Assembly: GCA_019359115.1 (NCBI GenBank)
Contig: JAHHHW010000091.1
Coordinates: 1-58,125 of the forward strand
Length of the DNA: 58,125 bases
Reading direction: 5' to 3'
From: Pelatocladus maniniholoensis HA4357-MV3
GTDB taxonomy: Bacteria > Cyanobacteriota > Cyanobacteriia > Cyanobacteriales > Nostocaceae
The position numbers and the translations under genes are program-made. Shown in pieces: positions 30,612-51,817 of the stretch. The notes under the pieces were generated by a model. That model saw only the letters and a list, made by a program, of their open reading frames with translations, was not told where the DNA came from and did not search any database. Within the stretch, counting starts at the first letter, position 1; each line of letters opens with the position of its first letter.

Positions 30612-33600
30612 TTAAATGTACACTTGTAATTGCTGGGCAAGTGTTGTGATGTAGGGGGGATGCATGATGGTAAAGTGGTTGCCATGTAAGACTTTTGTGT
30701 GAGTTGTGTTGATAGTATATTGACTCCAGTTGGTACGGGGTAATTTTGGTGTGAGTTGTTGTGCAGCCCACCAGATGCAGAGTTGAGCTTGGATTTGAGG
30801 TATTTGGTGGTTTTTTAAGAGTTTTTGGTGAATTTCGGTTAGTTCTAGTTGTTTTTGCAATATTTCAATTGATACTTCTGATAGTTCTTTTGAAAATAAA
30901 TTTTGTGATTGTCCCCAATTCATCATTAATTGCAGACGTTCAACACAAGTTAAAATTATGAGTTGATCTCGTAGTTGCTGCTGTTGAACAGCATCTAGCG
31001 TTATCAAAGCATCAACAAAAGTACCACCAAACACTAACGCTAATTCATACAAGGGATCGGGTGTAAAAGTTGGTGTATGATCTGGAAATAAGAATGCATC
31101 TACAAGCCCAACAAAATCAACTTTACATCCTTGCTGTTCTAATTCTTTGGTAACACTAACAGCAATGACTCCGCCCATAGACCAACCCATGAGATGATAA
31201 GAACCATGAGGTTGATGTTGGCGAATGATTTTGGCGTATTCTACAGCCATATTTTCAATGCTATTATGCTCATCCAGTGAGTTGTTGAGAGCGCGGGATT
31301 GGAGAGCGTATACAGGTCGATCTGTTCCTAAACAGGTGGCAAGATGTTGATACACCATTACTTGTCCTCCTGTGGGATGAATACAGAATAATGGTGGTTG
31401 AGTTCCCTGTGGTTGGATGGGGACTAAAGATATAGGTGTTGGGGAAGCGTGATGATTTTGGATGAGAAAATTTCCTAATTCGGCTACAGTTGGATAGTGA
31501 AAAAGTGTGCTGAGAGGTATATTTGTGTGAAATTTTTGATTGATTTCTGAAATTAATTGTAGTGCTAAAAATGAGTGTCCGCCTAATGCAAAGAAGTTAT
31601 CATAAATGCTGATTTGCGGAAGTTGAAATAATTCCATCCAAGTTGTAATTAATAGTTCTTCTACTTGGTTACGAGGCGGGGTAAAAGTTTGTGTTAATTC
31701 TGGTTGCGTACCTTCAGGAATAGGTAGTGCTTGACGATCCACTTTACCACTTGCTGTGAGCGGTAAAGATGCTAACAACACAAAAGTAGAGGGGAGCATG
31801 TATGCTGGTAATTTGGTTTGCAGAAAAGAACGTATTTCTTTGGTGGTGATGTTTGACTTCGGTTGGGGAACAATATAAGCTACTAATTGTTGTATTTCTT
31901 TGACTTTTATAACTGCAACTTCTTTAACAGTGGGATGCTGTTTTAATGTGGCTTCAATTTCACCGAGTTCAATTCTATAACCGTTGATTTTGACTTGAAA
32001 ATCTTCTCTTCCTAAAAACTCTATATTCCCGTCGGGTAAATAACGTCCCAAGTCGCCTGTTTTATATAGTTTTTCTTTGGTAACTGGATGAATAATGAAA
32101 CTAGCGTTTGTTTTTTCTGCGTCTTTCCAGTAACCTTTTGCTAATCCGATACCGCCAATATATAATTCTCCTGTCACCCAAAGAGGACATTTTTTCAAAG
32201 ATAAATTAAACACATAAAAATATTGATTTTTAAGTGGTTTACCGTAGGGAATAGTTTTCCAGTTGGGGTCAACTTTGGTAATTGGATAATAAATTGACCA
32301 AATGGAGGCTTCTGTTGCTCCTCCTAAACTAATGATTTCGGCTTGTGGAGATAATGCTTGGATTTGAGTGGGTAAATTCAAGGGTATCCAATCACCACTC
32401 AATAAAACTAATCTGAGAGTATGAAATGCAACTTGAGGATGATTTAAATTATACTCAATTAACATCTGCATGAAAGCCGGAACTGAGTTCCAAATTGTGA
32501 TTTGGTGTGTGGTAATTAATTCACTCCAATGAGATGGATCTTTACTGTTTGCAGCATCAGGAATGACTATTGTTCCTCCTGCTGCTAAAGTGCCGAAGAT
32601 GTCGTAAACTGAGAGGTCAAAGCTGAGAGCAGAAATAGCTAAGATGCGATCGCCTGAATCGATCCGAAAGCGTTCGTTAATATCTAAAATCGTGTTGACT
32701 GCACTTTCATGAGTAATCATCACACCTTTGGGTGTTCCTGTAGAACCAGAGGTGTAGATAATATAGGCTAAGTCTGTGGGTTTTGGGATTTGCTGGAATG
32801 GCTGGTGAGATGGTAAAGTTGGTAATGAATCTATACACAAAGTCGGGATGTTCTCTGGATATTCCAGACTATGAACAAGGCAAGTTTCAGTTAGTATGAG
32901 TTTGACTTGTGCTTGTTGTAAGCAATACCATATACGTTCCTTGGGTAATCCTGGATCGATGGGGACATAGATCCCACCAACAGCAAGGATACCCAAAGCA
33001 GCAACAACCTGTTTCCAACCTTTTTCTATAATGATCGCGATCGCCACCTGAGAATGATCGCCTAATTGTCGTGCTAATTCAGTGACGCGATCGCTTAACT
33101 CTTGATAGGTGAGAATGCGATCGCTGCTAATGACAGCTTGTTGTTGTGGACGTTGAGATACTTGTTCAAAAAACAAAGTGTGGAGTAAAGCTGTTTGCGG
33201 GATTGGTGTATGAGGATGATGAATTTGGATTGGTGGTAATAATTCTATGGGTACTGTCCACAATTCATCTTCTTGGGCTAAACGCTCCAGCAAATTGCAG
33301 TAAACTGTAAACATTTCATCCAACATCCCCATAGGGAAAAGTGCTTCCACTGCATCCCAATTAAAAATTAAGCTACCATTGTGTTCTGCAACTTGATGTT
33401 CTAAGGAAACTTGCGGGGTTTGGCTAATACCATACACCACCTCTCCTAAAAAGTTATATTCTAAATCTCCTTGAGCAAAATTACCCAAACCTAAAACACT
33501 ACTAAATACTATAGGCATAGCTGCGGTCAATTCTGTTTGCTTTTGATTGAGCAATTTCCGCAGTACTTCTACTCCACTAATATAAATATGATCTAAGTCT

Positions 33601-34769
33601 TGTAGTAATTGTTGCTGGATTTTTAGAGCTAGATTTGTAAATGTATTTGGTGAGGAATTGTCTATTGCTAAAAGATTTGTATTTGTAAAATCGCCAATAA
33701 TTTGATTGATTTGAGGATGGAGTGGTAGACGTTCCAGGACAGTTAAATTGAGAGTAAAGGAAGGATTTTTACTCCATAAAGTTAACATTTCTGCAAAAGC
33801 GGTTAGCAAAATGATAGAAGGAGTGAAACCAGCTTTTTGACCTCGCTGTTTTAATTTTTGCCATATATGAGGTTCTAGTTTTCCAGCACGGCGTTTGAAT
33901 GTATACTCTTTTAATTCATTGGGAAAACAAGCTAGGGGTAGTTCCGGTGCTGGTGGTAAAGTATCTAAACGATTGAACCAATAAGTTTGCGATCGCTTGA
34001 CTAATTCTGAGTCTTGGAGAGAATTTTTGGTAATGACGTAATCTCGAAATGATAATTCTAATGTTGGTAATGATAATTCCAGATTTTGATAAAGTTGATT
34101 CCATTCGTGAAATAAAATCCGAATACTCGCAGCATCTATCAGCAATAAATCCATGCTCAGATGTAGTCGAATTTGTTGTTGATTTAAATAAGTAGCTCGA
34201 ATATCAAACCAAGGCCATTGATGTGAAGGTAAGTTTTGCTGAGATAATTTTTCGCGGATTGCTATTAATTCAGTTTCGAGTTTTGAGGTTTCTGATTCTC
34301 GTAAATCTAAGATGGTAATTTGATAATCGGAAACTTTATCTAAGATTTGTTGCTCTCCTGTGGGTAATACTATCGCCCTTAGCATATCATGACGTTGAAT
34401 GAGTTTTTGCCAAGCTGCTGTAAGGCGGGATATGTCTAAATTATTAGTTTCAAATTCTATGTAAACATGATTGCTGACATGGCTTAATTCAAATACTTTG
34501 TTGCGTCCTAACCAATGTGCTTGTTGGATATCGGTTAGGGGAAATGGTTGATGAAGTTGCTGAGGATTTGGTTTGATGATTGGTAGGGAGGTTGTTTTGA
34601 TGTTGTTGAGATTTAGGAGTTTGATAATTTCTGGTTTATGTTCTTTGAGGGAATCGCGTAGTTCTGGTGTTAATGTTCCTTTGGGTGCTTCGATGTTTAA
34701 TAGGTCATTTTCTAGCCAGAGTTTGATTCCTCGTTTTTCGAGTTCGATTAAAAGTTGGTTTTTGTTCAT
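30612..34769 (-). CDS. NRPS module Cy-A(Cys)-PCP-TE with TubC docking domain
   Basis: A 1385-residue synthetase. Residues 1-55 are a TubC-type docking domain. The heterocyclisation domain (about 70-490) has Asp207-x4-Asp212 (DLLLID) in place of the HHxxxDG of condensation domains. The A domain (about 525-1030) has FDLSVYDIFG, WNSVPAF and LGGATEASIW, read as the code D-L-Y-N-L-S-L-I-W-K for cysteine. PCP Ser lies in GGHSF near 1060. A thioesterase ends the protein with GWSMGG near 1195. It should add and cyclise Cys to thiazoline and release the product as acid or by water. It is last in the minus-strand operon, 186 bp after the other NRPS gene. Confidence 0.95.
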   Translation of the reverse strand: MNKNQLLIELEKRGIKLWLENDLLNIEAPKGTLTPELRDSLKEHKPEIIKLLNLNNIKTTSLPIIKPNPQQLHQPFPLTDIQQAHWLGRNKVFELSHVSNHVYIEFETNNLDISRLTAAWQKLIQRHDMLRAIVLPTGEQQILDKVSDYQITILDLRESETSKLETELIAIREKLSQQNLPSHQWPWFDIRATYLNQQQIRLHLSMDLLLIDAASIRILFHEWNQLYQNLELSLPTLELSFRDYVITKNSLQDSELVKRSQTYWFNRLDTLPPAPELPLACFPNELKEYTFKRRAGKLEPHIWQKLKQRGQKAGFTPSIILLTAFAEMLTLWSKNPSFTLNLTVLERLPLHPQINQIIGDFTNTNLLAIDNSSPNTFTNLALKIQQQLLQDLDHIYISGVEVLRKLLNQKQTELTAAMPIVFSSVLGLGNFAQGDLEYNFLGEVVYGISQTPQVSLEHQVAEHNGSLIFNWDAVEALFPMGMLDEMFTVYCNLLERLAQEDELWTVPIELLPPIQIHHPHTPIPQTALLHTLFFEQVSQRPQQQAVISSDRILTYQELSDRVTELARQLGDHSQVAIAIIIEKGWKQVVAALGILAVGGIYVPIDPGLPKERIWYCLQQAQVKLILTETCLVHSLEYPENIPTLCIDSLPTLPSHQPFQQIPKPTDLAYIIYTSGSTGTPKGVMITHESAVNTILDINERFRIDSGDRILAISALSFDLSVYDIFGTLAAGGTIVIPDAANSKDPSHWSELITTHQITIWNSVPAFMQMLIEYNLNHPQVAFHTLRLVLLSGDWIPLNLPTQIQALSPQAEIISLGGATEASIWSIYYPITKVDPNWKTIPYGKPLKNQYFYVFNLSLKKCPLWVTGELYIGGIGLAKGYWKDAEKTNASFIIHPVTKEKLYKTGDLGRYLPDGNIEFLGREDFQVKINGYRIELGEIEATLKQHPTVKEVAVIKVKEIQQLVAYIVPQPKSNITTKEIRSFLQTKLPAYMLPSTFVLLASLPLTASGKVDRQALPIPEGTQPELTQTFTPPRNQVEELLITTWMELFQLPQISIYDNFFALGGHSFLALQLISEINQKFHTNIPLSTLFHYPTVAELGNFLIQNHHASPTPISLVPIQPQGTQPPLFCIHPTGGQVMVYQHLATCLGTDRPVYALQSRALNNSLDEHNSIENMAVEYAKIIRQHQPHGSYHLMGWSMGGVIAVSVTKELEQQGCKVDFVGLVDAFLFPDHTPTFTPDPLYELALVFGGTFVDALITLDAVQQQQLRDQLIILTCVERLQLMMNWGQSQNLFSKELSEVSIEILQKQLELTEIHQKLLKNHQIPQIQAQLCIWWAAQQLTPKLPRTNWSQYTINTTHTKVLHGNHFTIMHPPYITTLAQQLQVYI

Positions 34770-34869
34770 AATTTTTTTGTTCGTTGTTTGATTGGGTGGT
34801 GAGAAAATTGTTTTTGATTAACGAACACGGATGAACACGCAATCCTGCAAGGGATAGGATTTTTCGTAT

Positions 34870-34898
34870 GTAGAGACGTAGCATTGCTACGTCTCTAC
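34870..34898. repeat. GTAGAGACG palindromic dispersed repeat between NRPS genes
   Basis: GTAGAGACGTAGCA and TGCTACGTCTCTAC form a perfect 14-bp inverted repeat around a single T. It lies in the 186-bp gap between the two NRPS genes and is the best-preserved of three related copies. Confidence 0.85.
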
Positions 34899-34955
34899 AG
34901 GGTGTCAATAGATTTGTCTTATCCGAGCAGTATTGGATGAACACGAATAATACAT

Positions 34956-37900
34956 TCAGATTTGAATTATTTCTTTCTCGTCGTCTTGTCCTGTAGATAA
35001 AGGTTTTTGTGTGATTTTAGCTATGATTAATTGCTCATCAATAGCTAATGCTAGTTGTTGAATATTTGTGGTTTCAACCAATAGTTGGCGCATGGGAATG
35101 TTGACTTGGAGTTGAGTTTGTAAGTGATTCTTCAACTGCACGAGTTTGAGTGAGTCTATTCCTAATTCAAAGAAGTTATGCTGTATTCCCACTGCTTCAA
35201 TTTGCAGGAGTTGTTGGACGAATTCGGCTATTGTTTTTTCGGTTTGGGTTTGCGGAGGTACTAAAGCTGCTGATTTGGATGTTGCGAGATTGGGAGTTGG
35301 TAAAGCTTTTCTATCTATTTTTCCGTTAGGGGTTAGGGGTAAGGTGTCAATGAGAATATATTCAGCCGGGATCATGTATTGTGGAAGTTTTTGCTGTAGA
35401 TATTCTCGAAATTGGCTAGAATTTGATTTGGTAGTTTGAGGATTTTTAAGTAATAACCATTGCTGAGAATCTGTTGGGTCTATTTTTCCACCAACAAAAC
35501 TATAAAGGAGAACTTGATTTGCTTCTAATTTAAATAAATCTTGAATTTGGGGAAATTCTAAATAACCAAGGGGACAAAGACCAATTTCTTGGGTTGGTGC
35601 GCTGTTCATGAGTAATTGACCGATGTGTCCTGCTTCTAAAAGACAGAAGTCTCTAGCGAGTTCTCCATACATCGGTGCGATCGCACTCAGTTTCCCAATC
35701 AAATAGATTGCAAAAGCAGATTGTTCAAAAAGTGGTTGATTCTCAAGGTAAACACTGCTGTCTATTTCGTTGGTGCTGTGGAGTAAGATTAAACGGTGGT
35801 CGCTGGGATGATAATAATATATTCCTGCTGGGAGTGTTTCGATGCGGTTGGGTTTGATGAATAAGTAAGTTTGTACCGGATAAAGACTCCCAGCAGAAGG
35901 ATAGCGATACTTGGGAATGGGATAATCACCCAATTGCATTTGCTGGAGACAGTTGAGAAATTTGCTAAATTGTTCTAGGGAAATCTGTTGCGGTAGAAAT
36001 TGTCGGTAACTTTGGCGTTCTAGATAAGGTGTTTGCTCAAGTTCAGATTTCGGTAAGTGAATAGTAATTTGCGATGATTCTGATGTGCGGATTCCTGGTT
36101 GCTGGAGTTTAAATTCGATGCGTCCTCCAGCATCGCTTAATACTCCTGCTTGTTGAGGTGGTTGGTAAGCTTCTCCTAGATTGGGAGTTGGTGTGATGTG
36201 GTGTTCGCTAAAAATATAAGCAACTAATTGTTGTGTTTGTTCGACTGTGGTGACTACTGCTTCTTTGACAGTGGGATGCTGTTTTAATGTTGCTTCAATT
36301 TCACCGAGTTCAATTCTATAACCGTTGATTTTGACTTGAAAATCTTCTCTTCCTAAAAATTCTATATTCCCGTCGGGTAAATAGCGTCCCAAATCACCTG
36401 TTTTATATAATTTTTCTTTGCTAACTGGATGAGTAATAAAGCTAGCGTTTGTTTTTTCTGCGTCTTTCCAGTAACCTTTTGCTAAACCGATACCGCCAAT
36501 ATATAGTTGTCCCGTTACCCAAACAGGAGTTTGCTGTAAATTATGATTTAATACATAAACTTGTTGATGATCGAGTGGTTTACCGTAGGGAATACTTTTC
36601 CAGTTAGGATCTACTTGGGTAATGGGATAGTAAATTGACCAAATTGAAGCTTCTGTTGCTCCTCCTAAACTCACGACTTGGATATTTGACCACAATTTTT
36701 GGATTTGATTTGGTAAATTTAGAGGTAGCCAATCTCCACTCAAGAAAGCTAAACGTAGAGATGGAGGTCGTTGTGGTTGGTTGGCGAGATATTCTACCAA
36801 CATTTGCATCAAAGCTGGAACTGAGTTCCACAGGGTAATTTGCTGAGATACAATAAACTCTAACCAGTGTGCAGGATCTTTGGTTTGCTCTGCTGAGGGA
36901 ATGACTATCGTTCCTCCCGCCGCTAACATACCGAAGATGTCGTAAACTGAAAGGTCGAAGTTTAATGTTGATAAAGCTAAGATGCGATCGCCTGGTTTAA
37001 TTGCAAAGCGTCGGTTAATATCTAAGATTGTATTTACCGCACCCCGATGATCGATCATTACTCCTTTGGGTAAACCCGTAGAACCGGAAGTGTAGATAAT
37101 ATAAGCTAAATCATCGGGAGTTTGGACTAGTTTAATATCTTTCTCATCTCCTATGAGTTGACTTTCCACACATACTTGTTGAACACCTGATGGCAAAGAT
37201 AGCTGAAGATGAGGTTGAGTGACAATTAATTTAACTTGTCCTTGGGTGAGTAAATACCATTGTCGTTCTGCTGGTAATTCAGAATCGATGGGGAGATAAG
37301 CCGCACCAGCGATTAAAATTCCTAGTACAGCAACAACTTGCTCCCAACCTTTTTCCATGACAACGGCGATCGCATTATCGCAACTTGCTCCCAATTCTTG
37401 CAATTGAGATGCTAATTGCAGAGCGCGTTGGTATAATTCCTGATAAGTTAGGGTACGCTCTGGGGTAATGATGGCTGGAGAATGAGCTTGGATTTGCACT
37501 TGCTTGATAAACAAACTGTGCAAAGTTTCCTCACAAATGGGTGCGGTGGGATAATTTGCAATTGTGGGTTGTCGTAATTCTCCCTGACTTGCGCTCCAAA
37601 TCGCATCTGAGGTAATTAGTTGTTGAAGCAAATCGCAGTAAGCAGCAAACATCTCATCCAGCAAACCTGCGGGGAAAAGTTCTTCCACCGCATCCCAGTT
37701 AAATATTAAAGTTCCGTTTTGCTCTGTGATTTGATTATCTAACCAAACTTGCGGGGTTTGACTGATACTGTAAACAATCTCCCCTAACTGACTTAATATT
37801 GATGTATCCTGACCAAGTGATTCTAAACCTAGCGTACTAGTAAATACCACTGGGATAAATTGGTAACTTTGGCGTTGACGGTTAAGTTCTCGCTGTACCT

Positions 37901-40900
37901 GCAAACCACTGATATAACCGTGATCTAAATCTTGCCACAGTTGTTGCTGTAATTGTTGAGCGTGGTTGCTAAAGCTTTCGGGAACTGAGCGATCGACTTC
38001 TAAAAGTGTTAAAGAAGTGAAGTCTCCGACAATTTCATTAACTTGGGGATGTAAAGGTAAACGCTTAAATAATGTGAGATTAATAGTAAACTTGGGACTT
38101 CTGCTCCATTGACTGAGGATTTCTGCAAAAGCAGCTAATAAAACTCCCGAAGGAGTTAAGTTAAATTGTTGAGCGCGATTTTGTAATTTGCGCCATTGTT
38201 CTGGAGACAGTTGGGAACTGCGACGTTGAAACCGAGGATTGGCGATCGCATTGGGATTTTTCGCTAAAGGTAATTCTGGTGCTGGTGGTAAGGTATCTAG
38301 TCGGTTAAACCAATATTCTTGAGAACGTTGATATTGGGGTGTATTTTTTAAAGTTGATTCCCCAAGCACATAATCGTGGAAGGAAAGTTCTAAGGGTGAT
38401 AATACAAACTCAGAATTATTATATAGATGTAACCACTCCCGCATCAGCAGAAACACACTCCAAGCATCAGCAATCAAAGCATCAAAACTGAGGTGGAGTC
38501 TGGTACGCTGTTCATCTATGGGTGTAGCTCGAATCCTAAATAAAGGCCATTGTTCCGCAGGTAAGACTTCATGGGACATCTGCTCACGCATCACCTCTAA
38601 ATCTTGCAAATCTAAAACTTCGATTTCATAAGCCGGTACTGTTGGCAGAATTTGCTGTTGACCATCTGGTAAGATGACAGCACGCAGCATATCGTGACGC
38701 AAAATGAGTTTTTGCCAAGCTTGATTTAATCTTGTTAAATTTAAGCGATTGCAATCTAATTCTAAATAACCATGAGCAGCAATATTCCCTAATTCAAAAG
38801 CTTCATTGCGTCCTAACCAATAAGCTTGTTGAATATCGGTGAGGGGAAAAGGTTGATATAGCTGTTGTGGATCTGGGACAATTGTTGGTAAATTAACTGA
38901 AGATTCTGTCTTTGTCGAAGATGTCAGTGCTTCACTCAATCCAGCTACTGTGGGAGATGCTAACAAAGAGCGTAGCGGTAACTCAATATTTAAGGTTTGT
39001 TGTAATCGCGCAATCACTTGAGTCGCAAGTAGGGAATGTCCCCCCAATTCAAAAAAGTTATCGTGAATGCCTACTTGTGTGAGTCCCAAAACAGCAGCGA
39101 TAATATTAGCGATCGCTTCTTCCGTTGCTGTGCGCGGTGGAACAAAGTCTATTTGTCGATTCTGTTCGATATCTGGAATTGGTAAAGCAAGCCGATCTAT
39201 TTTACCGTTGGGTGTTAAAGGTAAAGTTTCCAGGATGGCGATCGCACTGGGAATCATATAATCAGGTAACTTCTGTTTGAGAAAGTTACGCAATTCACTA
39301 GTTGTTAATGATTGTTGCTGAGAAACAACATATGCAACTATAGATTTATTGTCGGTTTGCAGTTCTCGAACCATCACCACTGCTGCTTGAACTTGGGGAT
39401 GACTACTCAAAACAGCTTCAATTTCCCCTAGTTCAATTCGGAAACCCCGAATCTTCACTTGATCGTCAATTCGACCGAGTAATTCAATATTACCGTCAGG
39501 AAGATAACGCGCTAAATCTCCTGTTTTGTACAAAATAGGGGTGTGGGGGTAGAAGGAATTAGGGATAAATTTCTCTTTAGTTAAATCGTCCCGATTTAAA
39601 TAACCTTGAGCTAAACCAGCACCACCTATATATAATTCACCCGCAACCCCAATCGGAACTAATTGCAGATACCGATCTAAAATATAAACTTGCGTGTTCG
39701 CAAATGGACGACCAATAGGAACCAACCCAGTTCCTAATTTCCCAATCCCCAATTCAAAATACGTGCTATCAATACATGCTTCCGTTACCCCATAGGAATT
39801 AATCAAACGTGTCTGCGCGCCACAAAAACGCTGAAATTCTTGATATTCTTGCACATACAAACTATCTGAACCGACTACCAACAATTTCATAAAGTGGAGA
39901 TTTTGCTGAGTTCTTTGTAAATACTCAACCAAGTTTCTCAACACAGCTGGAACAAACTCCGCGCTATCAATTTTCTCCACCAACATCAGTTTATACAACT
40001 TGTCTGGTTCCAACAGCCACTGACGCGGACATAAAATTAACTTAGCACCACTACAAAGAGCGCGAATTACATCCCCTGAAAACACATCAAAAGCAAAACT
40101 CGCCATTTGTAAATGACTAGTCAGAGACTGGAGTTGATAAGCTTTTTCCCAAGCATAAAACGCATTTACTAAACTATGATGAGCGATCGCCACTCCTTTA
40201 GATTTACCTGTGGAACCTGATGTGTAAATCACGTAGGCTAAATCTTGAAATGTAGTATTAATAACTAAATTATCTTCACTTTCCTGGGAAATATTTTGCC
40301 AATCTTGATCTAAACAAACTACAGTTAAATCCTCTATTGGTAAACTTGCTACTAATTTTTGTTGCGTCAGCAGCACTGAGACTTGAGAATCACGCAGCAT
40401 AAAGTTCAAGCGTTCTTCGGGATACGCAGGATCTAAAGGTAAATAAGCTCCACCTGCTTTGAGAACTCCCAATAATGCAATAATCATTTCTAGGGAGCGT
40501 TCGACACAAATTCCCACCAGCTGATTTTCACCTATTCCCAAAGAACGCAGGTAGTGTGCGAGTTGATTGGCTTTGCTGTTTAATTCTTGATACGTTAATT
40601 GTAAAGACGTTTCATGAAGCGTCTCTACATTTGGAAATATCACCGCAACCGCGTTTGGTTGCTGGTTCACACAGTTCTCAAACAACTGATGAATAACTCG
40701 ATCTTGGGGATAATCAACTTGGTTGTTGTTCCACTTCCACAACAAATGATTTGCTTCAACTTCCGTTAGCAGAGGTAAGGAAGCTATTTGCTGTTGTGGA
40801 TTAGCAATAATCCCTGCGAGTAAAGTTTGAAAATGATTCGCTATCCTGCTAATTGTCGTAGCATCAAATAAATCGGTGTTGTATCTGAAAATACCAATTA

Positions 40901-42287
40901 ATGATTCAGTCGTTTCCATCATGTCGAAAACTAAATCATTCTGTCCTTCCTGCTGAGGAATCACAAAAGGTTCTAAAGTTAACCCACCCCAATTTTCTCT
41001 AATTTTAGTTTTATCAGATACAGATAATTCATAATCTTGAGCAATTTCACTTAGCTTAAACAAGTTAAAGGAAACGCGAAAAAGACCAGGAAGACTCGGA
41101 TCACGGTTGAGTTGCGATCGCTCAATTAGTAAAGTAGAGGGATAATCTTGATGAGCGATCGCATCCAATACAGTTTGGCGGACTTGAGTTAAAAGCTGAG
41201 AAAATGTCGGATTACCAGCTATATTTACCCGTAAAGCCAGCATATTCACGAAAAAACCCACAGTTTCCGCAAATTCCGGCTGACTTCTCCCCTCAATCGG
41301 CGCACCCACGATTATATCTTCCTGACCTGACAAGCGGTAAAGTAACACTTGAAAGGCTGTTAACAAAGTCATATAAAGGGTTGCTCCTTGAGCTTTCGCC
41401 ATTTCTCGCAGCTGAGAAGTCAACTCTTGATTTAACTCAAAAGTATGGGAAGCTCCCCGATAGCTTTGAATTGGTGGTCGCGGTCGGTCTGTTGGTAATT
41501 TTAAGATGGGTAACTCACCCGCTAATTGTTCGCGCCAATAATTCCATAATTCATCGCCCACAGAACTTGCTAAAATATTTCTCTGCCACTGTACAAAGTC
41601 TTGATATTGGTACTTAATAGCAGGTAAAGATATGACTCGACCTGTATTTTCCGCTTCGTAGAGCGATCGCAATTCATCGAGAATAATTCCCAGGGAAAAA
41701 CCATCAATAACAATGTGATGTATGGTTAGTAATATTACATAATTTTCTTCAGAACAAGTAAATAAATTTACCCGCAATAAATTACCTTTTTCCAGATCAA
41801 AGGGACGCTGATATGCTGCTATTACTTGGCTTGTCAACTCATCTTCGTTCCAAGTTGAAGCGTCAATATTTTCAAAATCAACTTCTTGGTATTCATGAAC
41901 CTGTTGAAAAGGTTCGCCATCTTTTTGTGTAAATGTTGTGCGGAGAGTTGGATGACGATTTACTAACTTCTGAAATGCTTGTTGTAAAGCTGGAATATTT
42001 AAATGAGAGCGGATGCGAGCTGTAAAAGCAACGTTATAAGCTGCACTTGCGGGTGCAAGTTTATACAAAAACCATAAACCTTGCTGACCGTGAGTCAGGG
42101 GATAGGATTTAGAAGTATGAAAACCTTGGCGCAGCAAATCGATAATTTCTGTTTTATGCTGCTTAATTTGATTTAAAACTGTGGAAGTTAATCCTTCTTT
42201 GCGACCACGATAACGCAGCTTATTATCTTCAACCCACAATTCTATATTCTGTTGCGAGAGTTGTGTGAGAAACTCAACTAAATTCAT
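34956..42287 (-). CDS. NRPS: C-A(basic)-PCP-Cy-A(Cys, Ox insert)-PCP
   Basis: The start is taken as the ATG at 42287, which follows AAGGAG and overlaps the ACP stop (ATGA); a GTG at 42305 is in frame but less likely. The protein has 2443 residues. In order: TubC docking domain (1-55), condensation domain with HHIVIDG near 187, A1 (about 520-1020), PCP1, heterocyclisation domain with a DxxxxD motif near 1269 (DALIAD), A2 with an FMN oxidase of the SagB/McbC type (about 2055-2275) inserted between motifs A8 and A9, then PCP2 (GIDSL near 2380). A1 reads D-V-G-E-L-V-S-I-D-K, near the Orn code I recall. A2 reads as Cys. It should make acyl-Orn/Lys-thiazole bound to PCP2. Confidence 0.95.
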   Translation of the reverse strand: MNLVEFLTQLSQQNIELWVEDNKLRYRGRKEGLTSTVLNQIKQHKTEIIDLLRQGFHTSKSYPLTHGQQGLWFLYKLAPASAAYNVAFTARIRSHLNIPALQQAFQKLVNRHPTLRTTFTQKDGEPFQQVHEYQEVDFENIDASTWNEDELTSQVIAAYQRPFDLEKGNLLRVNLFTCSEENYVILLTIHHIVIDGFSLGIILDELRSLYEAENTGRVISLPAIKYQYQDFVQWQRNILASSVGDELWNYWREQLAGELPILKLPTDRPRPPIQSYRGASHTFELNQELTSQLREMAKAQGATLYMTLLTAFQVLLYRLSGQEDIIVGAPIEGRSQPEFAETVGFFVNMLALRVNIAGNPTFSQLLTQVRQTVLDAIAHQDYPSTLLIERSQLNRDPSLPGLFRVSFNLFKLSEIAQDYELSVSDKTKIRENWGGLTLEPFVIPQQEGQNDLVFDMMETTESLIGIFRYNTDLFDATTISRIANHFQTLLAGIIANPQQQIASLPLLTEVEANHLLWKWNNNQVDYPQDRVIHQLFENCVNQQPNAVAVIFPNVETLHETSLQLTYQELNSKANQLAHYLRSLGIGENQLVGICVERSLEMIIALLGVLKAGGAYLPLDPAYPEERLNFMLRDSQVSVLLTQQKLVASLPIEDLTVVCLDQDWQNISQESEDNLVINTTFQDLAYVIYTSGSTGKSKGVAIAHHSLVNAFYAWEKAYQLQSLTSHLQMASFAFDVFSGDVIRALCSGAKLILCPRQWLLEPDKLYKLMLVEKIDSAEFVPAVLRNLVEYLQRTQQNLHFMKLLVVGSDSLYVQEYQEFQRFCGAQTRLINSYGVTEACIDSTYFELGIGKLGTGLVPIGRPFANTQVYILDRYLQLVPIGVAGELYIGGAGLAQGYLNRDDLTKEKFIPNSFYPHTPILYKTGDLARYLPDGNIELLGRIDDQVKIRGFRIELGEIEAVLSSHPQVQAAVVMVRELQTDNKSIVAYVVSQQQSLTTSELRNFLKQKLPDYMIPSAIAILETLPLTPNGKIDRLALPIPDIEQNRQIDFVPPRTATEEAIANIIAAVLGLTQVGIHDNFFELGGHSLLATQVIARLQQTLNIELPLRSLLASPTVAGLSEALTSSTKTESSVNLPTIVPDPQQLYQPFPLTDIQQAYWLGRNEAFELGNIAAHGYLELDCNRLNLTRLNQAWQKLILRHDMLRAVILPDGQQQILPTVPAYEIEVLDLQDLEVMREQMSHEVLPAEQWPLFRIRATPIDEQRTRLHLSFDALIADAWSVFLLMREWLHLYNNSEFVLSPLELSFHDYVLGESTLKNTPQYQRSQEYWFNRLDTLPPAPELPLAKNPNAIANPRFQRRSSQLSPEQWRKLQNRAQQFNLTPSGVLLAAFAEILSQWSRSPKFTINLTLFKRLPLHPQVNEIVGDFTSLTLLEVDRSVPESFSNHAQQLQQQLWQDLDHGYISGLQVQRELNRQRQSYQFIPVVFTSTLGLESLGQDTSILSQLGEIVYSISQTPQVWLDNQITEQNGTLIFNWDAVEELFPAGLLDEMFAAYCDLLQQLITSDAIWSASQGELRQPTIANYPTAPICEETLHSLFIKQVQIQAHSPAIITPERTLTYQELYQRALQLASQLQELGASCDNAIAVVMEKGWEQVVAVLGILIAGAAYLPIDSELPAERQWYLLTQGQVKLIVTQPHLQLSLPSGVQQVCVESQLIGDEKDIKLVQTPDDLAYIIYTSGSTGLPKGVMIDHRGAVNTILDINRRFAIKPGDRILALSTLNFDLSVYDIFGMLAAGGTIVIPSAEQTKDPAHWLEFIVSQQITLWNSVPALMQMLVEYLANQPQRPPSLRLAFLSGDWLPLNLPNQIQKLWSNIQVVSLGGATEASIWSIYYPITQVDPNWKSIPYGKPLDHQQVYVLNHNLQQTPVWVTGQLYIGGIGLAKGYWKDAEKTNASFITHPVSKEKLYKTGDLGRYLPDGNIEFLGREDFQVKINGYRIELGEIEATLKQHPTVKEAVVTTVEQTQQLVAYIFSEHHITPTPNLGEAYQPPQQAGVLSDAGGRIEFKLQQPGIRTSESSQITIHLPKSELEQTPYLERQSYRQFLPQQISLEQFSKFLNCLQQMQLGDYPIPKYRYPSAGSLYPVQTYLFIKPNRIETLPAGIYYYHPSDHRLILLHSTNEIDSSVYLENQPLFEQSAFAIYLIGKLSAIAPMYGELARDFCLLEAGHIGQLLMNSAPTQEIGLCPLGYLEFPQIQDLFKLEANQVLLYSFVGGKIDPTDSQQWLLLKNPQTTKSNSSQFREYLQQKLPQYMIPAEYILIDTLPLTPNGKIDRKALPTPNLATSKSAALVPPQTQTEKTIAEFVQQLLQIEAVGIQHNFFELGIDSLKLVQLKNHLQTQLQVNIPMRQLLVETTNIQQLALAIDEQLIIAKITQKPLSTGQDDEKEIIQI
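40601..40628. repeat. GTAGAGACG-type repeat inside NRPS A1 domain
   Basis: GTAAAGACGTTT, then CATG, then AAGCGTCTCTAC form a 28-bp imperfect palindrome related to 24432-24459 and 34870-34898. It is read in frame as NVETLHETS in the N-terminal part of A1, before the LTYQEL motif, a loop that tolerates insertions. Confidence 0.75.
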
Positions 42288-42583
42288 AATTCTCCTTCCA
42301 ACCACTCATCGTCATTTTCATTTTCTATTTTTGAGTCCGCATTTTCGCTCAACTCGTTTACTAATATTGCTAAACTTGCAACATTAGTATCATCTAGGAA
42401 CTTTACTGCTGGAATATCTACTTCCAAATCTTTTCTAAACTTATTTCTCAGTTTGACAGCAATTAGTGAATCAAGTCCTAAATAATTTAAAGACATTCTG
42501 ACATCTAATTCAGATGTATCTATCCCAATTACCTTAGCTATTTCCTCTTGAATATAAGTTGTAAAAAATGCAATTTTAGACAT
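42284..42583 (-). CDS. Stand-alone acyl carrier protein (ScoB/Rv0100-like)
   Basis: A 99-residue carrier protein. The 4'-phosphopantetheine site is Ser39 in LGLDSLIAVKLRNKF, and helices II-IV are complete. The C-terminus (NENDDEWLEGEL) is acidic and unstructured, a likely docking tail for the N-terminal TubC domain of the next NRPS. Its stop overlaps the NRPS start by four bases (ATGA). By position and partners it matches the ACP of isonitrile-lipopeptide clusters, where it carries the beta-isonitrile acyl chain. Alone it could serve any acyl starter. Confidence 0.9.
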   Translation of the reverse strand: MSKIAFFTTYIQEEIAKVIGIDTSELDVRMSLNYLGLDSLIAVKLRNKFRKDLEVDIPAVKFLDDTNVASLAILVNELSENADSKIENENDDEWLEGEL

Positions 42584-42673
42584 ACTGTTCCAGCAAAATA
42601 AAGTCTTATTGGCGTTCTCTTCTGGAGCGACTATGCGTCTGGAGCGTGAAAAAATAAATTAATTCGAGTTAAC

Positions 42674-43231
42674 CTATCCCGGAGAATTTACAATCACTAA
42701 TTTTACACTACCACTGCAATTACCATCTTTATCATCCCAATAACGGCATTTGGTAACTATATACATCATCCCAGACCTAATCCGAATATTAGTAAACTCA
42801 ATTTCACCCCAAAATTGAGAAGACTGCATAGCACGCCGAAAGGAACTTTCAAAATTCACAATATAAATATCTGGTAACTGTTTATTCCAATAATCTGCCA
42901 TAGTCCACGACTGAAATGATGCCATCAATCTTTCTTTCACAGATTTAGCTATGACATAATACATCATTTGGTTGTAGCAAATATTAAACTCCACTGAATT
43001 AAAATGACCAGTGTCATCGATATAACACGATTCCGGGATCGAAAATTCACATTGTCCGATTACGCGTCCCCCATGCTGAGGATCGCCCTCTTTAATTACT
43101 TCAGCAGATTTAAGATACTGACAATTAGCTTTATAAGGCTTGAGTACTTGTGCTAGTAAAATATCATCATTATTGATGTGGATACTATTTTGTTTGACGC
43201 TTTGTTGACTTGAATCCTGAAATTTCAACAT
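42674..43231 (-). CDS. scoD: FcoT/ScoD-like thioesterase (Rv0098 homologue)
   Basis: A 185-residue hotdog-fold protein of the FcoT type. The strongest matches, to Rv0098 as I remember it, are TGHFNSVEFNICYNQMMYYV (residues 74-93) against TGHFNAVELILCFNQLAY, and later SWTMADYWNKQL and SSFRRAMQSSQF. In ScoD-type enzymes this protein adds glycine to an alpha,beta-unsaturated acyl-ACP and releases the N-carboxymethyl-beta-amino acid. It lies between the oxygenase and the ACP, as in actinobacterial clusters. The role here is inferred from the partners. Confidence 0.88.
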   Translation of the reverse strand: MLKFQDSSQQSVKQNSIHINNDDILLAQVLKPYKANCQYLKSAEVIKEGDPQHGGRVIGQCEFSIPESCYIDDTGHFNSVEFNICYNQMMYYVIAKSVKERLMASFQSWTMADYWNKQLPDIYIVNFESSFRRAMQSSQFWGEIEFTNIRIRSGMMYIVTKCRYWDDKDGNCSGSVKLVIVNSPG

Positions 43232-43284
43232 TATATTTTCTCCTGATTAAATGACTAAATAAGGCAAAATTTAAGAGTTATAAT

Positions 43285-44163
43285 CTATAACTGATAAAAA
43301 GGATCGCTATCGTGCAAGGTCAATCGAAATGTAACCGCTGGTTCCGAATTTGCAGCATAGTGAGCGCAATGCACTAGAGAGCGATTATCCCAAATCCGCA
43401 CATCTCCTAATTCAAATTCATGATGTTCTATTAATGGATATTTAAAACTTTTGTCTAACTGACCGGAATGAGTCAACAACTTTTGGAGAATATTTATATC
43501 TCGCGGTTTTCCCTCTGAATCATCTATGCGATAGGTAAACCCTTCGGTAATGTAGAGGATGGTTTCTCCTGTAACGGGATGAATAAAGGTCGTTGGATGC
43601 TCTACAGGAGGAGTGACTCGTTCAATCTCGTCCAATATTTCTGAAATCGGACGATAAACATCTTCAGGACGAATTTTAAAAAAACGTCTGACACTGTGAT
43701 AACAACTCGACTGATTGGCGATCGCTTTCAGGTCATCTGGTAAACATTGATATACTTTGGACATATTAATAAAGTAAGTGCCACGATCTTTACTAGGAAG
43801 GAGCTGAGGATATACCATTGAAAATGCAAATGGCCTCGGCATAAACGCATAATCAGCGTGCCAAAACTTCCCAGTTTTCGGAACTCCAACTTGCTGATTA
43901 TTCTCGGAAACATTGGAGGAAACAAAAATCTCTTCCCTTTCTGGGTGGTGATACATCGGCTGATAGTATTTTTCTACCTCCCCAAGACGATACCCAAAAT
44001 CGCAATACTCATCAGGTGAAAAATCTTGCTCCTTGAGTACAACAATTTTGTATTCATATATCAGTTGCTTCACATCCTCAATATCTTGATCTGAAGCAGT
44101 TTTATGATTGAAGTCATAAACAACAACTCCCATTCGCTGATTGTCTTGATATTGAACTTTCAT
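43285..44163 (-). CDS. scoE: ScoE/Rv0097-type non-heme iron oxygenase (isonitrile former)
   Basis: A 292-residue TauD-family Fe(II)/2-oxoglutarate enzyme. Iron ligands are His102, Asp104 (WHADYAF) and His265. The group that marks the isonitrile branch is present: Tyr66, Tyr67 and Tyr71 (YYQPMY), Lys163 and Arg280. Adding 30 to each gives the ScoE positions as I recall them: 132, 134, 295; 96, 97, 101; 193; 310. In that family the enzyme turns an N-carboxymethyl group into an isonitrile with loss of CO2. It lies 53 bp upstream of scoD. If the recalled numbering is wrong, the plain TauD assignment still stands. Confidence 0.9.
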   Translation of the reverse strand: MKVQYQDNQRMGVVVYDFNHKTASDQDIEDVKQLIYEYKIVVLKEQDFSPDEYCDFGYRLGEVEKYYQPMYHHPEREEIFVSSNVSENNQQVGVPKTGKFWHADYAFMPRPFAFSMVYPQLLPSKDRGTYFINMSKVYQCLPDDLKAIANQSSCYHSVRRFFKIRPEDVYRPISEILDEIERVTPPVEHPTTFIHPVTGETILYITEGFTYRIDDSEGKPRDINILQKLLTHSGQLDKSFKYPLIEHHEFELGDVRIWDNRSLVHCAHYAANSEPAVTFRLTLHDSDPFYQL

Positions 44164-44523
44164 AGTTTTATCACTGGCTATATGACTTTTATTTGATTAT
44201 TTAATTTTGGCGAAGCTAGTTAAAAAGTAAAAAGTAAAAAGTAAAAAGTAAAAAGATAATCCCCCATAAATAAATTGAGGGGATTTGTAATCGACGTATT
44301 GTTTCTTGTCCTCCGGAACTCGTAGACGCGGAGCGGCTTCTCGTAGAGTAACAAATGTTTTTACTTTTTTTCCATAAATAAATTTAGGGGCATCAAACCA
44401 TTTTTCTTTTTATTTCTTTCTTTTACCTTTTACCTTTTAACTTTTTACTTTTGCCTTGTTCGGTAACTTTCCTGTTCCCCGTTTTCAACATAGAAATTAA
44501 TCAATCAAACCGGCTTTCTATAG
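44164..44523. other. Gap between oxygenase and exporter genes
   Basis: The gap is mostly a dispersed low-complexity element (44221-44461, listed separately), plus a short repeat rich in GTAGACGCGGAGCGG-type words near 44320. No gene or clear promoter was seen; it probably holds the promoter of the oxygenase. Confidence 0.5.
44221..44461. repeat. Dispersed AT-rich element, copy 1 (TAAAAAG array)
   Basis: Five TAAAAAG heptamers in tandem (44221-44255), then GATAATCCCC, CATAAATAAATT, GGGG, and finally pyrimidine-rich complements of the heptamer ending in TTTGCCTTGTTC. A second copy with the same start, middle and end lies at 53007-53128. The two bracket the exporter, ligase, receptor and permease genes. 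Confidence 0.7.
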
Positions 44524-45780
44524 TTAACTAATCTTACGTACCGATGGATTCGCTGCCAAAGCAAGACTCGTAATTAGCATAATGCTACCCGCAACAGTAA
44601 ACATAATTGTCAGATTTAAATTCACTAAAATCCCAGCTATAGCAAAGGAAAGAGGAGCAATACCAAAAGCAGAAAACATTCCCAAACTCATCACTCTTCC
44701 TAACATTTCAGGTTGGCTTTGTTTCTGAATCCAAGTAATTCCTACCACAGTGAAAATACAACTGCAAAATCCCAGCACTGCAATTGTTATACTAGCTAGT
44801 ACTATATTGCCAATAAAGCCAAGTAAAAATAAACCAAAGCCTTGAACACTCGCAATAGTTAACAGTAAAACTCCGATATTGGGAAGATTTGGCACAAATT
44901 GAGGTGTGAGTGTCCCAATTAACCCACCACCACCCCAAGCTGATTGCATGATCCCTAAAGCTACTGCACCACCTGGGAAGCGACTATGAGCTAGTGAAGT
45001 CATCCCAACTTGTAATGGCCCAATAAATAGAAAATTGAGGATTACCATTACCAGCAAAAAGATTCTTAAAGGCTGATTGCGCCATGTGTAGTCAAATCCC
45101 TCACGCATACCAGCAATCAAATTCATAGTTTTTTTAGTTGATACAGAATTTTGATTTAATTCTCCATGCAATGCTGTTGCTTTTGCTGTGGTTCCCTTCA
45201 TGAGCAAAAGCGTGATAGTTGTGATGGCAAAAGTTATCCCATCAATGACAAATGCTACTTCAATCCCCGCAGTTGCAATCAGTAAACCACCTAAAGCCGG
45301 CCCAATCAGCAAAATCAGTTGGGAAGTTCCTTGGCTTAAAGTATTACTTGCTATTAATTGTTCTTTTGATACCAGACTGGGAATAATTGATTTAGATGCA
45401 GGTATAAAAAAGCCATCAAATATGCCGAAGCTCGCAGCAAAAAAGTAAATATGCCATAGTTTGGTGATTTTCAGCGCAACGATTGTTGCAAATAAAACTA
45501 CTAGTAAACCACGTAAAGCATTAGAAACAAACATCACTAATCGTGGTGAAAAGCGATCGCTCACCACACCACCAAATAGCATCAAAATAGCACGGGGAAT
45601 TGCTGCACTCATTAACACAGTACCTAGCGTGATCCCAGAGTTAGTTAACTGTATTGTTAACCAAGGCAATGCAACGATGTAAAACTGATCGCCTAGAAGC
45701 GAAACAGTTTCACCGATGTATAGAAGTAAGAAGTTGCGTACAGTTAGCGGTTTCCAAAGTGGAACTTTAGAATTGGTCAT
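44524..45780 (-). CDS. EntS-like MFS exporter
   Basis: A 418-residue major facilitator of the MFS_3 (EntS) type with about 12 membrane helices and the loop motif GGVVSDRFSPR between helices 2 and 3. EntS-like members export catecholate and related metallophores across the inner membrane. It sits inside the biosynthetic run between the ligase and the oxygenase, which fits release of the finished product. Substrate is inferred from context only. The gap to the ligase (142 bp) carries short hairpin repeats. Confidence 0.87.
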   Translation of the reverse strand: MTNSKVPLWKPLTVRNFLLLYIGETVSLLGDQFYIVALPWLTIQLTNSGITLGTVLMSAAIPRAILMLFGGVVSDRFSPRLVMFVSNALRGLLVVLFATIVALKITKLWHIYFFAASFGIFDGFFIPASKSIIPSLVSKEQLIASNTLSQGTSQLILLIGPALGGLLIATAGIEVAFVIDGITFAITTITLLLMKGTTAKATALHGELNQNSVSTKKTMNLIAGMREGFDYTWRNQPLRIFLLVMVILNFLFIGPLQVGMTSLAHSRFPGGAVALGIMQSAWGGGGLIGTLTPQFVPNLPNIGVLLLTIASVQGFGLFLLGFIGNIVLASITIAVLGFCSCIFTVVGITWIQKQSQPEMLGRVMSLGMFSAFGIAPLSFAIAGILVNLNLTIMFTVAGSIMLITSLALAANPSVRKIS

Positions 45781-45845
45781 TAGAAAGATTTGAAAAAAAC
45801 AAACTATGTGAAGTAATATAAAATTATTGAAATCTAGTTCGTAGT

Positions 45846-45879
45846 AAGGACTGAAGTCCTTATTTGAGGACTAAAGTCC
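45846..45879. repeat. Paired short hairpins (AAGGACTGAAGTCCTT type)
   Basis: AAGGACT-GA-AGTCCTT (45846-45861) followed by GGACT-AA-AGTCC (45868-45879). They are tight hairpins of a dispersed family seen in filamentous cyanobacteria. In a within-operon gap they could modulate mRNA stability. Confidence 0.7.
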
Positions 45880-45922
45880 ACCTTACGGAAGCCGCTCTTA
45901 TGAGCGTCTACACTACAAACCT

Positions 45923-47506
45923 TTAATTCACACGACGTTCATACCCTTGCCAATATTTCTCGCGAATCTTGGCCTTTTGCAATTTACCACTAGGCGTTCT
46001 TGGCAAAGATTCAGTAAACTCAACACTTCTAGGTAACTTAAAATCAGCAATTTTACCCCGAACAAAATTAATAATATCTAATGCGGTTGCTTTCATGCCT
46101 GTTTTTAAAACCACAATCGCTTTGATTGTTTCTCCAAAATCTTCATCTGGAACACCAATGACTGCTACCTCTCTGATGGCTGGATGTTCGTATAAAATAT
46201 TTTCTATTTCTGCTGGATAAACATTTTCGCCACCATAAACAATCATGTCTTTAAAGCGATCGCAAATGTAAATGTAACCTTCTTCATCAAAATAACCAGC
46301 ATCACCAGTATGAATCCAGCCATCTACTAAGGTTTTTGCTGTAGCTTCAGGTAATTTCCAATAACCAATCATATTTGCAGGAGATTTGATACAAACTTCA
46401 CCCACTTCAAAGCAAGATAGTTCTTGACCTTCACTGTTGATGATGGCTATCGATACGCCAGGAAAGGGTTTACCCGCAGCTTTGAGGATGTTTTTATTTG
46501 TAGATGTATGGTCTTTTGCAGGTAAAGAGACGGCACAATTGCCAGTTTCGGTCATTCCATATATTTGCACAAAATTACAATCAAATGTGGCGATCGCATC
46601 TTTGAGTGATGATTCAGCTATGGGGGAACCCCCATAGATAACATATTCTAGTGATGAAAAATCTGTTTTTTGGCATAATGGTTCGTTCAACAAAACTTGA
46701 ATCATGGCTGGAACCATAAATGTCTTAGTGATGCGATACTTTTCAATCGCTTGGAGAACCTCAACACCGATAAAATTGTCTAAGACAATATTTTCGGCTC
46801 CTGCTGCTAAACCACGAATAGCCCACCATAAACTACCGATATGGAATAAAGATAAGGTAAGCAAACTCTTATCAGTGGCGTTCCAATTTATCCAAGTTTG
46901 ATTTCGTTGAGCAAATTCTTTGGCGATCGCAAAAAAACTATAATGTCCTAGTTGGACACCTTTGGGTCTTCCTGTAGTGCCACTAGTATACATTTGTACG
47001 GCTACATCATTGGCTGCAACAACGATATTTGGTGGCTCGTCACTATGTTCCTGAGACCAGATATCATAACTCAGGCAATTGCCATCAATTTCTTCTAAGG
47101 CAATAATGGTTTTAACGCCATCAATCTCATTTCTAATCGATACTACTAACTGATAAAATTCTGCCCCGACAAAAAGAATTTCAACATTAGCATCCCTGAG
47201 AATATAGCTAACTTCAGCAGCAGCTAAACGCCAATTAATAGGTACAAAAACAGCTTTGATTTTGCAACAAGCAAATAAAATTTCATAACTCTTAAGTGAA
47301 TCTTTAGCTAAAAGTGCTACTCGCGCACCTGGTTGAATTCCTTGGGCTAAAAGTGAATTTGCAACTTGATTACTTCGCCGATCTAATTGCAAATAAGTAA
47401 GTGATTTATCCTTAAATATCAATGCCTTCGTGTCTGGAAATTGACGTGCTTGCACACGTGACAAATCTGCTAACGTTGTTATTTTACTGTTATATATCAT
47501 CGACAT
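45923..47506 (-). CDS. Acyl-AMP/CoA ligase (ScoC/FadD10-like)
   Basis: A 527-residue ANL-family ligase with the P-loop YTSGTTGRPKG near 172, IYGMTETG near 315, GWIHTGDAGYF near 398 and the catalytic lysine in PSGKLQK near 505. In isonitrile-lipopeptide clusters this enzyme activates the fatty acid and later the isonitrile acid and loads it on the ACP. It is the first gene of the minus-strand run. Of two start codons (47506, 47500), the second has the better spacing to GAGG. Ligases of this class also make acyl-CoA, so ACP loading is an inference from context. Confidence 0.88.
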   Translation of the reverse strand: MSMIYNSKITTLADLSRVQARQFPDTKALIFKDKSLTYLQLDRRSNQVANSLLAQGIQPGARVALLAKDSLKSYEILFACCKIKAVFVPINWRLAAAEVSYILRDANVEILFVGAEFYQLVVSIRNEIDGVKTIIALEEIDGNCLSYDIWSQEHSDEPPNIVVAANDVAVQMYTSGTTGRPKGVQLGHYSFFAIAKEFAQRNQTWINWNATDKSLLTLSLFHIGSLWWAIRGLAAGAENIVLDNFIGVEVLQAIEKYRITKTFMVPAMIQVLLNEPLCQKTDFSSLEYVIYGGSPIAESSLKDAIATFDCNFVQIYGMTETGNCAVSLPAKDHTSTNKNILKAAGKPFPGVSIAIINSEGQELSCFEVGEVCIKSPANMIGYWKLPEATAKTLVDGWIHTGDAGYFDEEGYIYICDRFKDMIVYGGENVYPAEIENILYEHPAIREVAVIGVPDEDFGETIKAIVVLKTGMKATALDIINFVRGKIADFKLPRSVEFTESLPRTPSGKLQKAKIREKYWQGYERRVN

Positions 47507-48778: not shown

Positions 48779-48848
48779 CCAAGCCAAATGCGTGGTCCCT
48801 CATGGGCTTTCTGCTTTGATCACTGTAAAGCAAGGAAGTAGAAGTTAG

Positions 48849-48952: not shown

Positions 48953-49163
48953 GTAGCTAGACCTCCACAGGTGTTAGCCTAGCTCCTCTCTAAAGAGGCT
49001 CGCGCCCACAATAAAAGCATGAAAATCTATTTCTTAATCCCCTATTCCTATTTTCAACACAGATTTACAAGTTTGACAGTTCGTCATTTGACACTGTTAC
49101 CGCCAAGGCAAACAATTGAGCAACATAAGCGCTTTAGTTGATTTGCTACTAATAGCTTGAATT

Positions 49164-51766: not shown

Positions 51767-51817
51767 CAGTTATCAGTTATCAGTTTTATCACTTGCCCTC
51801 TGCTTTTTTTGTAAGCT

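Follow-up and report, generated by a model that had tools for sequence, protein, structure and literature searches.

A probable isonitrile and thiazole/thiazoline chalkophore cluster in Pelatocladus maniniholoensis and related cyanobacteria

The DNA stretch analyzed here, referred to as the window, is 58,125 nt long and represents the entire contig C91 of the 6.7 Mb genome of Pelatocladus maniniholoensis HA4357-MV3. It carries a cluster of isonitrile-type starter genes and two nonribosomal peptide synthetase (NRPS) genes. We consider it likely that this cluster is a chalkophore (copper metallophore) system, whose product with an isonitrile and a thiazole/thiazoline part would be exported, re-imported and placed under PetR-type control. 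With less assurance, though still as the version we favor, we propose a mobile isonitrile-ornithine-thiazole-thiazoline chalkophore which is built by isonitrile chemistry of the actinobacterial type, is taken up again through a TonB receptor with an FptX-like permease, occurs with two importer types and is wired into PetR/PetP. We infer the chalkophore function from PetR/PetP being the copper switch of photosynthesis. Isonitrile lipopeptides act in copper acquisition elsewhere, according to parts of PMC9600254. Gene content, the ScoE clade, domain order, adenylation (A) domain codes, synteny and the recurrence of a box by copper-switch genes were established directly.

If this reading is right, the cluster would encode the first copper metallophore of the isonitrile-NRPS type from a photosynthetic organism, as far as the searched open-licence literature shows, and would offer a way to test how a cyanobacterium moves scarce copper across its outer membrane. 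The role of PetR/PetP would widen from the choice between plastocyanin and cytochrome c6 to copper acquisition. An earlier reading of this DNA made from the letters alone (here the sequence-only reading) knew of no described cluster of this combination and of none from a cyanobacterium. This is in agreement with our search, in which neither a cluster for a product combining isonitrile with thiazole/thiazoline chemistry nor a cyanobacterial ScoE-type cluster was found; the search covered open-licence literature only and is hence not proof.

Isonitrile starter enzymes

The ScoE-like protein of the window passed the ScoE model NCBIfam NF049937 with 437 bits (cut-off 400) and matched ScoE in the PDB (6dch) at 2.9e-111, compared to 5.2e-21 for TauD of E. 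coli. For one tree the TauD rows were filtered by motif, which kept 5 and dropped 19; the Rv0097 group was not included. Here, 25 ScoE-type rows were located on one side of a branch supported at 100/100. A placement outside the ScoE clade, named by the sequence-only reading as evidence against itself, did not occur. With 18 TauD rows the split between ScoE and TauD was supported at 98/98, one long TauD branch being misplaced among the ScoE rows. In the 5-TauD tree the window protein grouped with those of Nostoc linckia, Nostoc carneum, aff. Roholtiella and Symploca (95/100), and a gammaproteobacterial row stood next to this cyanobacterial group (86/80).

The AlphaFold model of the protein had a predicted local distance difference test score of 90.7 and a predicted template modeling score of 0.90. 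Template modeling scores were 0.97 against ScoE (6l6w, 6dch), 0.95-0.96 against SfaA, 0.85-0.91 against Rv0097/MmaE chains and 0.77-0.81 against TauD chains. Judged by the modeled fold, ScoE is closer to the window protein than the Rv0097 group is.

The proposed constant residue offset of 30 from ScoE was confirmed by alignment (Y66/Y67/Y71, H102/D104/H265, K163, R280). In total, eleven ScoE positions were counted as functional, of which ten (Y96, Y97, Y101, H132, D134, R157, K193, R195, H295 and R310) are all retained; the eleventh is His299. H132, D134, H295, K193 and R310 we take to be functional. The remaining six, Y96, Y97, Y101, R157, R195 and H299, are named in passages of PMC7949033, where H299Q abolished ScoE activity, R195Q gave no product and changes of Y101 were inactivating too.

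At the position of His299 the window protein carries Tyr269, with His268 adjacent. Tyrosine was present here in 7 of 7 Nostocales examined (the window and 6 relatives), and histidine in Symploca. This replacement counts against the proposed function and is the main biochemical reservation on the isonitrile reading. Together with the effect of H299Q, it would fit an enzyme that has lost isonitrile synthesis, an N-carboxymethyl-beta-amino or other beta-amino starter then entering an isonitrile-free thiazole/thiazoline peptide; beta-amino acid starters are served by ScoD-type enzymes as well, as excerpts of PMC11284099 state. We regard such a loss as improbable, since ten of the eleven functional positions are retained, among them Y101 and R195, where substitutions inactivate ScoE, the protein exceeds the ScoE cut-off, a histidine is located one residue before the tyrosine, and the identity of 90-95% between the copies of Nostocales shows that ScoE was kept. 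By most features the window protein would work like ScoE, strict equivalence left aside.

Two distant cyanobacterial genomes, G291 and G297, encode ScoE-like proteins with 37% and 36% identity to that of the window, respectively. These carry Gln at Arg195 and Ser or Thr at His299 and adjoin scoD-like genes, of which the one in G291 reads in two frames and the one in G297 is cut by the contig end.

The ScoD-like protein belongs to the Pfam family FcoT (211 bits, cut-off 27) and matched PDB 5wsy at 9.6e-56. In 2 Streptomyces genomes the best match of the ligase (45-46% identical) is, by its coordinates, the ligase belonging to their ScoE cluster. The major facilitator superfamily (MFS) exporter scored 124 bits with NCBIfam EntS, under the cut-off of 324, and is 93-98% identical among Nostocales.

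Among GTDB contigs, 172 ScoE relatives were confirmed, and the best 80 of them were analyzed (7 cyanobacterial, 1 gammaproteobacterial and 72 actinobacterial). Co-occurrence of ScoE and ScoD, suggested as a check by the sequence-only reading, was observed throughout, with a ScoD-type match in 80 of these 80 loci; a ligase match was present in 68 of them. A ScoA-type reductase (over 80 bits) was found in 48 of the 73 non-cyanobacterial loci, several of which are cut by contig ends. None of the 73 had an oxidase or thioesterase (TE) match, and the two weak matches to heterocyclization (Cy) domains lacked the Cy motif. A copper-ATPase match with 36-43% identity was present around 41 of the 73. 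In a gammaproteobacterial metagenome-assembled genome (L054) and in Saccharopolyspora (L020), scoE and scoD lie near type I polyketide synthase modules; isonitrile polyketides are possible products of these loci.

NRPS architecture and predicted product

The earlier description of the NRPSs was borne out by domain and motif scans, which found the DxxxxDxxS motif in each of two Cy domains, as well as a TE, and no reductase. In addition, an oxidase (Ox) domain of the Nitroreductase family is inserted in the second A domain of NRPS1 (residues 2096-2270). The HHxxxDG motif of the condensation (C) domain, both Cy motifs, the carrier serines and the motifs of oxidase and TE were present.

The codes of the three A domains were determined by alignment as DVGEVGSID, DLYNFSLIW and DLYNLSLIW. 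By reference codes we take them to specify ornithine, cysteine and cysteine, respectively. The same analysis of Streptomyces loci gave mostly DAED[VI]GTVV or DTEDVGTVV. The NRPS of Symploca is arranged as ACP-C-A-T-C-A-T-Cy-A(Ox)-T-TE, where ACP is an acyl carrier protein and T a carrier domain, with the codes VDWIISFAN (presumably for a beta-alanine-like residue), DVGEVGSVD and DLYNLSLIW. G291 has three DVGEIGSID codes.

In both Symploca and G291 the ACP is fused to the first C domain. The first C domain of the window is 69% identical to that of Symploca and 59% to the ACP-linked one of G291, compared to 38-39% for whole internal C domains and 23% for the C domain of ScoA. These fusions and identities suggest that the ACP passes the chain to the first C domain, and that one shared loading unit feeds three different assembly lines. 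Because the loading C domain of Symploca appears to serve a beta-alanine-like residue, acylation of a single ornithine amine is plausible in the window product as well; the double acylation of actinobacterial diisonitriles may or may not apply to it.

Based on these features the following pathway is proposed. It would begin with the ligase attaching a short enoic acid to the ACP. Glycine would be added across the double bond by the ScoD-type enzyme, which would also hydrolyze the product, the ScoE-type enzyme would convert the N-carboxymethyl group to the isonitrile, and the ligase would reload the beta-isocyano acid on the ACP. From there the first C domain would transfer the beta-isocyano acyl group to ornithine, and the two Cy modules would add two cysteines, yielding a thiazole, by the oxidase domain, and a thiazoline. 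The TE would release an acid or a cyclic form, to be exported by the EntS-like MFS protein. The TonB receptor and the FptX-like permease would return the metal complex. Under copper scarcity, the PetR-type box would turn on import, and perhaps synthesis, alongside cytochrome c6. In this scheme we infer all enzymatic steps, the number of acylated amines (one or two), the chain length, the metal and the binding of PetR.

The cluster shares features with two known kinds of systems. In the actinobacterial isonitrile lipopeptide clusters (ScoA-E, SF2768, mycobacterial nrp) a ligase, an ACP, a ScoD-type and a ScoE-type enzyme likewise feed an NRPS. Their core is a diamino acid, lysine or ornithine (PMC9600254, seen in part), and ornithine was read here too. 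The Streptomyces example scanned is composed of C-A-T-reductase, whereas the window encodes C-A-T-Cy-A(Ox)-T and Cy-A-T-TE; it contains the actinobacterial-type gene set by the NRPS but ends in a TE and not in a terminal reductase. TonB receptor, FptX-like permease and PetR-type box further set it apart from the actinobacterial clusters. The window cluster would work like the actinobacterial kind, yet we do not file it there. The support found for ScoE clade, ScoD co-occurrence and domain order agrees with the original proposal of isonitrile starter genes joined to a thiazole/thiazoline NRPS.

Pyochelin and yersiniabactin are thiazoline metallophores with a receptor and an MFS permease. With these and the lusichelins, thiazoline/thiazole metallophores from a cyanobacterium, the window has in common Cy modules acting on cysteine, a TonB receptor and an RhtX/FptX-like permease. 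It differs in having an isonitrile acyl starter and ornithine; a salicylate-type starter was not seen. The abstract and passages of the lusichelin paper PMC12210259 mention neither isonitrile nor ScoE.

Importers, distribution and mobility

The genes of the TonB receptor and the permease are oriented divergently from the biosynthesis run and are located just beyond it. The receptor consists of Plug, barrel and AMIN domains and has 4epa (listed as pesticin receptor) as its best solved relative. The permease resembles AmpG and RhtX/FptX and scored under the cut-offs for both.

The cluster was found in at least 8 other public cyanobacterial genomes. The order ligase-MFS-ScoE-ScoD-ACP-NRPS and the divergent receptor and permease are kept in 6 other Nostocales and in Halotia, the NRPSs of Dendronalium and CHAB 5836 being cut by the contig end. 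Symploca has a rearranged set of genes; receptor and permease are still nearby, each 46% identical to that of the window. Thus the pair adjoins the cluster in all 8 other close cyanobacterial copies. At E ≤ 1e-60 the ScoE family model matched 3 of 388 genomes of the class, namely the window's own and the distant G291 and G297. On the Symploca contig a gyrB with intein domains is located near the cluster (L097:7439-11992).

Two types of importers were distinguished. The window and N. linckia share the first (receptor 92%, permease 91% identical), and six others share the second (receptor 93-97%, permease 91-96% among themselves). Between the types the identity drops to 66-73%, while ligase, ScoE, ScoD and MFS are about 89-98% identical. 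As judged from these identities, receptor and permease are a pair exchanged as a unit, in two types, beside near-constant biosynthesis genes. This independent exchange, and the bioactivity of some isonitriles, could also suit an isonitrile antibiotic or signal, the importer then serving self-protection or the scavenging of something else. The presence of the pair beside the cluster in the 8 other copies, even in the rearranged Symploca, and the copper-type box argue against that, and of the explanations weighed here it has the least credence.

The 250 kb plasmid of Halotia branconii CENA392 bears the cluster, with 92% nucleotide identity over 89% of an 18.6 kb query and NRPS2 interrupted by an IS701 element. 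Between the window and the 6 other Nostocales, gyrB is 79.1-81.3% identical at nucleotide level and 49.0-58.1% at fourfold sites, compared to 92.5-94.4% and 79.9-89.1%, respectively, for ligase, ScoE and MFS. NRPS1 agreed with this pattern in 5 of the 6, the CHAB 5836 stretch ending before NRPS1 and being left out. The gap to gyrB and the carriage on a plasmid point to horizontal transfer and a mobile cluster. A second metal-uptake set, consisting of a TonB receptor, an iron ABC transporter, CobW and DUF1636, is located nearby on the Halotia plasmid (L155, L167).

Copper box, PetR/PetP and gene layout

The receptor-side region of 7 aligned Nostocales keeps the block GTTTGACRGTTYGTCATTTGACA, and Symploca has GTTTGACCGCTTGTCATTTGACA despite its distant receptor. 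With up to 3 mismatches the box gave 15 sites in four genomes, compared to 3 for the reversed pattern. Four sites are at the cluster receptor, 3 before cytochrome c6, 1 before a TPR gene, 2 before DsbD_2-type proteins (one by eye) and 2 before other receptor-like genes of N. carneum and the window's genome; of the 3 elsewhere, one falls inside a long open reading frame (ORF). The sites before cytochrome c6 include those of Komarekiella, one of which directly follows NRPS2. In Symploca it is located at a BlaI/M56 (PetR/PetP-like) pair adjoining petJ (cytochrome c6) and petE (plastocyanin). The window's genome encodes such a pair as well, 70% and 55% identical to that of Symploca. Boxes there at G000:C166:1658-1680 and C1:9912-9934 (L179, L182) precede a large gene with an acyl-ligase-like start (by eye) and an AMIN receptor-like ORF.

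The regulon emerged only with this longer form of the box, which was found through the comparison with Symploca. A first operator guess, TTGACA-N3-WGTCAW, was not enriched (87+72 matches, control 83+84); two other exact matches were located by genes without evident copper link, and the BlaI and plastocyanin stretches were unconvincing.

The exact pattern GTTTGACNNNNYGTCWTTTGAC was present in 92 of 291 genomes of the class, with 0 for the reversed control among the matches listed. At least one looked-for gene started within 400 bp in 21 of 30 sampled loci. This was most often cytochrome c6 (10 loci), followed by a DsbD_2 membrane protein (6 loci), BlaI/PetR (4 loci), plastocyanin (2 loci) and the receptor (1 locus, the window itself). 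The DsbD_2/ferric-reductase-like protein, starting beside the box in these 6 loci (L194-L197, L207, L209), may belong to the copper regulon as well.

Once activated by copper, PetP degrades PetR; when copper is lacking, PetR keeps petE repressed and petJ active (PMC13421787 and PMC7896320, both seen in part). Since the box recurs by cytochrome c6, plastocyanin and PetR-type genes, and PetR/PetP is the copper switch, we read it from its position as a putative PetR-type operator. The PetR regulon of Synechocystis encodes four proteins, according to passages of PMC7896320, and the portion consulted of the review PMC10141476 gives PetR/PetP no downstream copper-homeostasis response. With the known switch the present system shares boxes by petJ, petE and petR/petP-like genes; it differs from Synechocystis in having a box ahead of a receptor gene that belongs to a metallophore-like cluster, and this would change the view of the review.

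Several further observations weigh against the chalkophore assignment. The ScoD-like protein stays under the NCBIfam ScoD cut-off (220 bits, cut-off 250), and the 22 kb contig that carries the distant G291 cluster gave no match to the receptor. The pattern GTTTGACNNNNYGTCWTTTGAC was composed after inspecting the 15 sites; 9 of the 30 sampled loci were without any looked-for gene within 400 bp, and no box with up to 4 mismatches turned up in the stretches surrounding plastocyanin or the BlaI genes, either in the window's genome or in N. carneum. A binding sequence of PetR was not found in passages of PMC7896320, PMC13421787 and PMC10141476. The distance from the box to the receptor is 121 bp and that to the start of the ligase 1.56 kb, which leaves control of synthesis unproven. 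The copper ATPase next to the permease was rejected as a conserved part, as the other Nostocales stretches around the cluster had no match to it. Finally, the receptor falls short of the NCBIfam siderophore-receptor cut-off (195 bits, cut-off 223.5), and its solved relatives are mostly iron-siderophore receptors.

The last point, the siderophore permeases within the permease family and the binding of both iron and copper by thiazoline/thiazole metallophores from one cyanobacterium (abstract of PMC12210259) would agree with an isonitrile-thiazol(in)e product that binds a metal other than copper, with iron or zinc as the likeliest, and with a box that does not act as a copper control. This is the alternative we take most seriously, though we hold it to be unlikely, in view of the recurrence of the box by cytochrome c6, plastocyanin and PetR-type genes and of isonitrile relatives that are copper ligands (excerpts of PMC9600254).

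The features of the chalkophore cluster are given in Table 1. Read on the minus strand from 47506 to 30612, the order is ligase, MFS exporter, ScoE-type, ScoD-type, ACP, NRPS1 and NRPS2. The ligase, ACP, ScoD-like, ScoE-like and two NRPS genes listed by the sequence-only reading were recovered as minus-strand ORFs at the coordinates it gave. Its account had omitted the oxidase domain, the MFS exporter (44524-45780), the replacement of His299 and, just outside its coordinates, the receptor and permease (49214-52993) with the proposed copper control.

Table 1. Features of the window, with positions, strand and basis of the assignment
Feature	Position	Strand	Basis or remark
Acyl ligase, ScoC-like, 527 aa	45923..47506	-	AMP-binding; Streptomyces best matches
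MFS exporter, EntS-like, 418 aa	44524..45780	-	MFS_1/MFS_3
ScoE-type isonitrile synthase (predicted), 292 aa	43285..44163	-	NCBIfam NF049937, PDB match, tree, AlphaFold model
FcoT/ScoD-type glycine-adding thioesterase (predicted), 185 aa	42674..43231	-	Pfam FcoT, NCBIfam ScoD, PDB 5wsy
Acyl carrier protein, 99 aa, overlapping NRPS1 start	42284..42583	-	PP-binding, LGLDS motif
NRPS1, TubC dock-C-A(Orn)-T-Cy-A(Cys, oxidase inserted)-T, 2449 aa	34956..42305	-	Domain scan, motifs, codes
NRPS2, TubC dock-Cy-A(Cys)-T-TE, 1385 aa	30612..34769	-	Domain scan, motifs, codes
PetR-type box (putative), 22 bp, 121 bp before receptor	49071..49092	+	Conservation, recurrence by copper-switch genes
TonB-dependent receptor with AMIN domain, 850 aa	49214..51766	+	Domain scan; kept by cluster
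RhtX/FptX/AmpG-like permease, 391 aa	51818..52993	+	Family scan; kept by cluster
Copper P-type ATPase, neighbor, probably not a conserved part	53481..55742	+	TIGR01511, 666 bits, cut-off 397

Between ligase and receptor the window contains short repeats of the TTTTTGCGCTCGCCGAAATGA kind (48838-48950), which are absent in 6 other aligned regions. The 3' half of a tRNA-Phe is located at 30450-30499, 112 bp from the NRPS2 stop. A tRNA-Phe fragment with a similar upstream flank is present again on contig C11 of the same genome, and the full tRNA-Phe on C64. The fragments look like attachment-site remnants of an integrative element.

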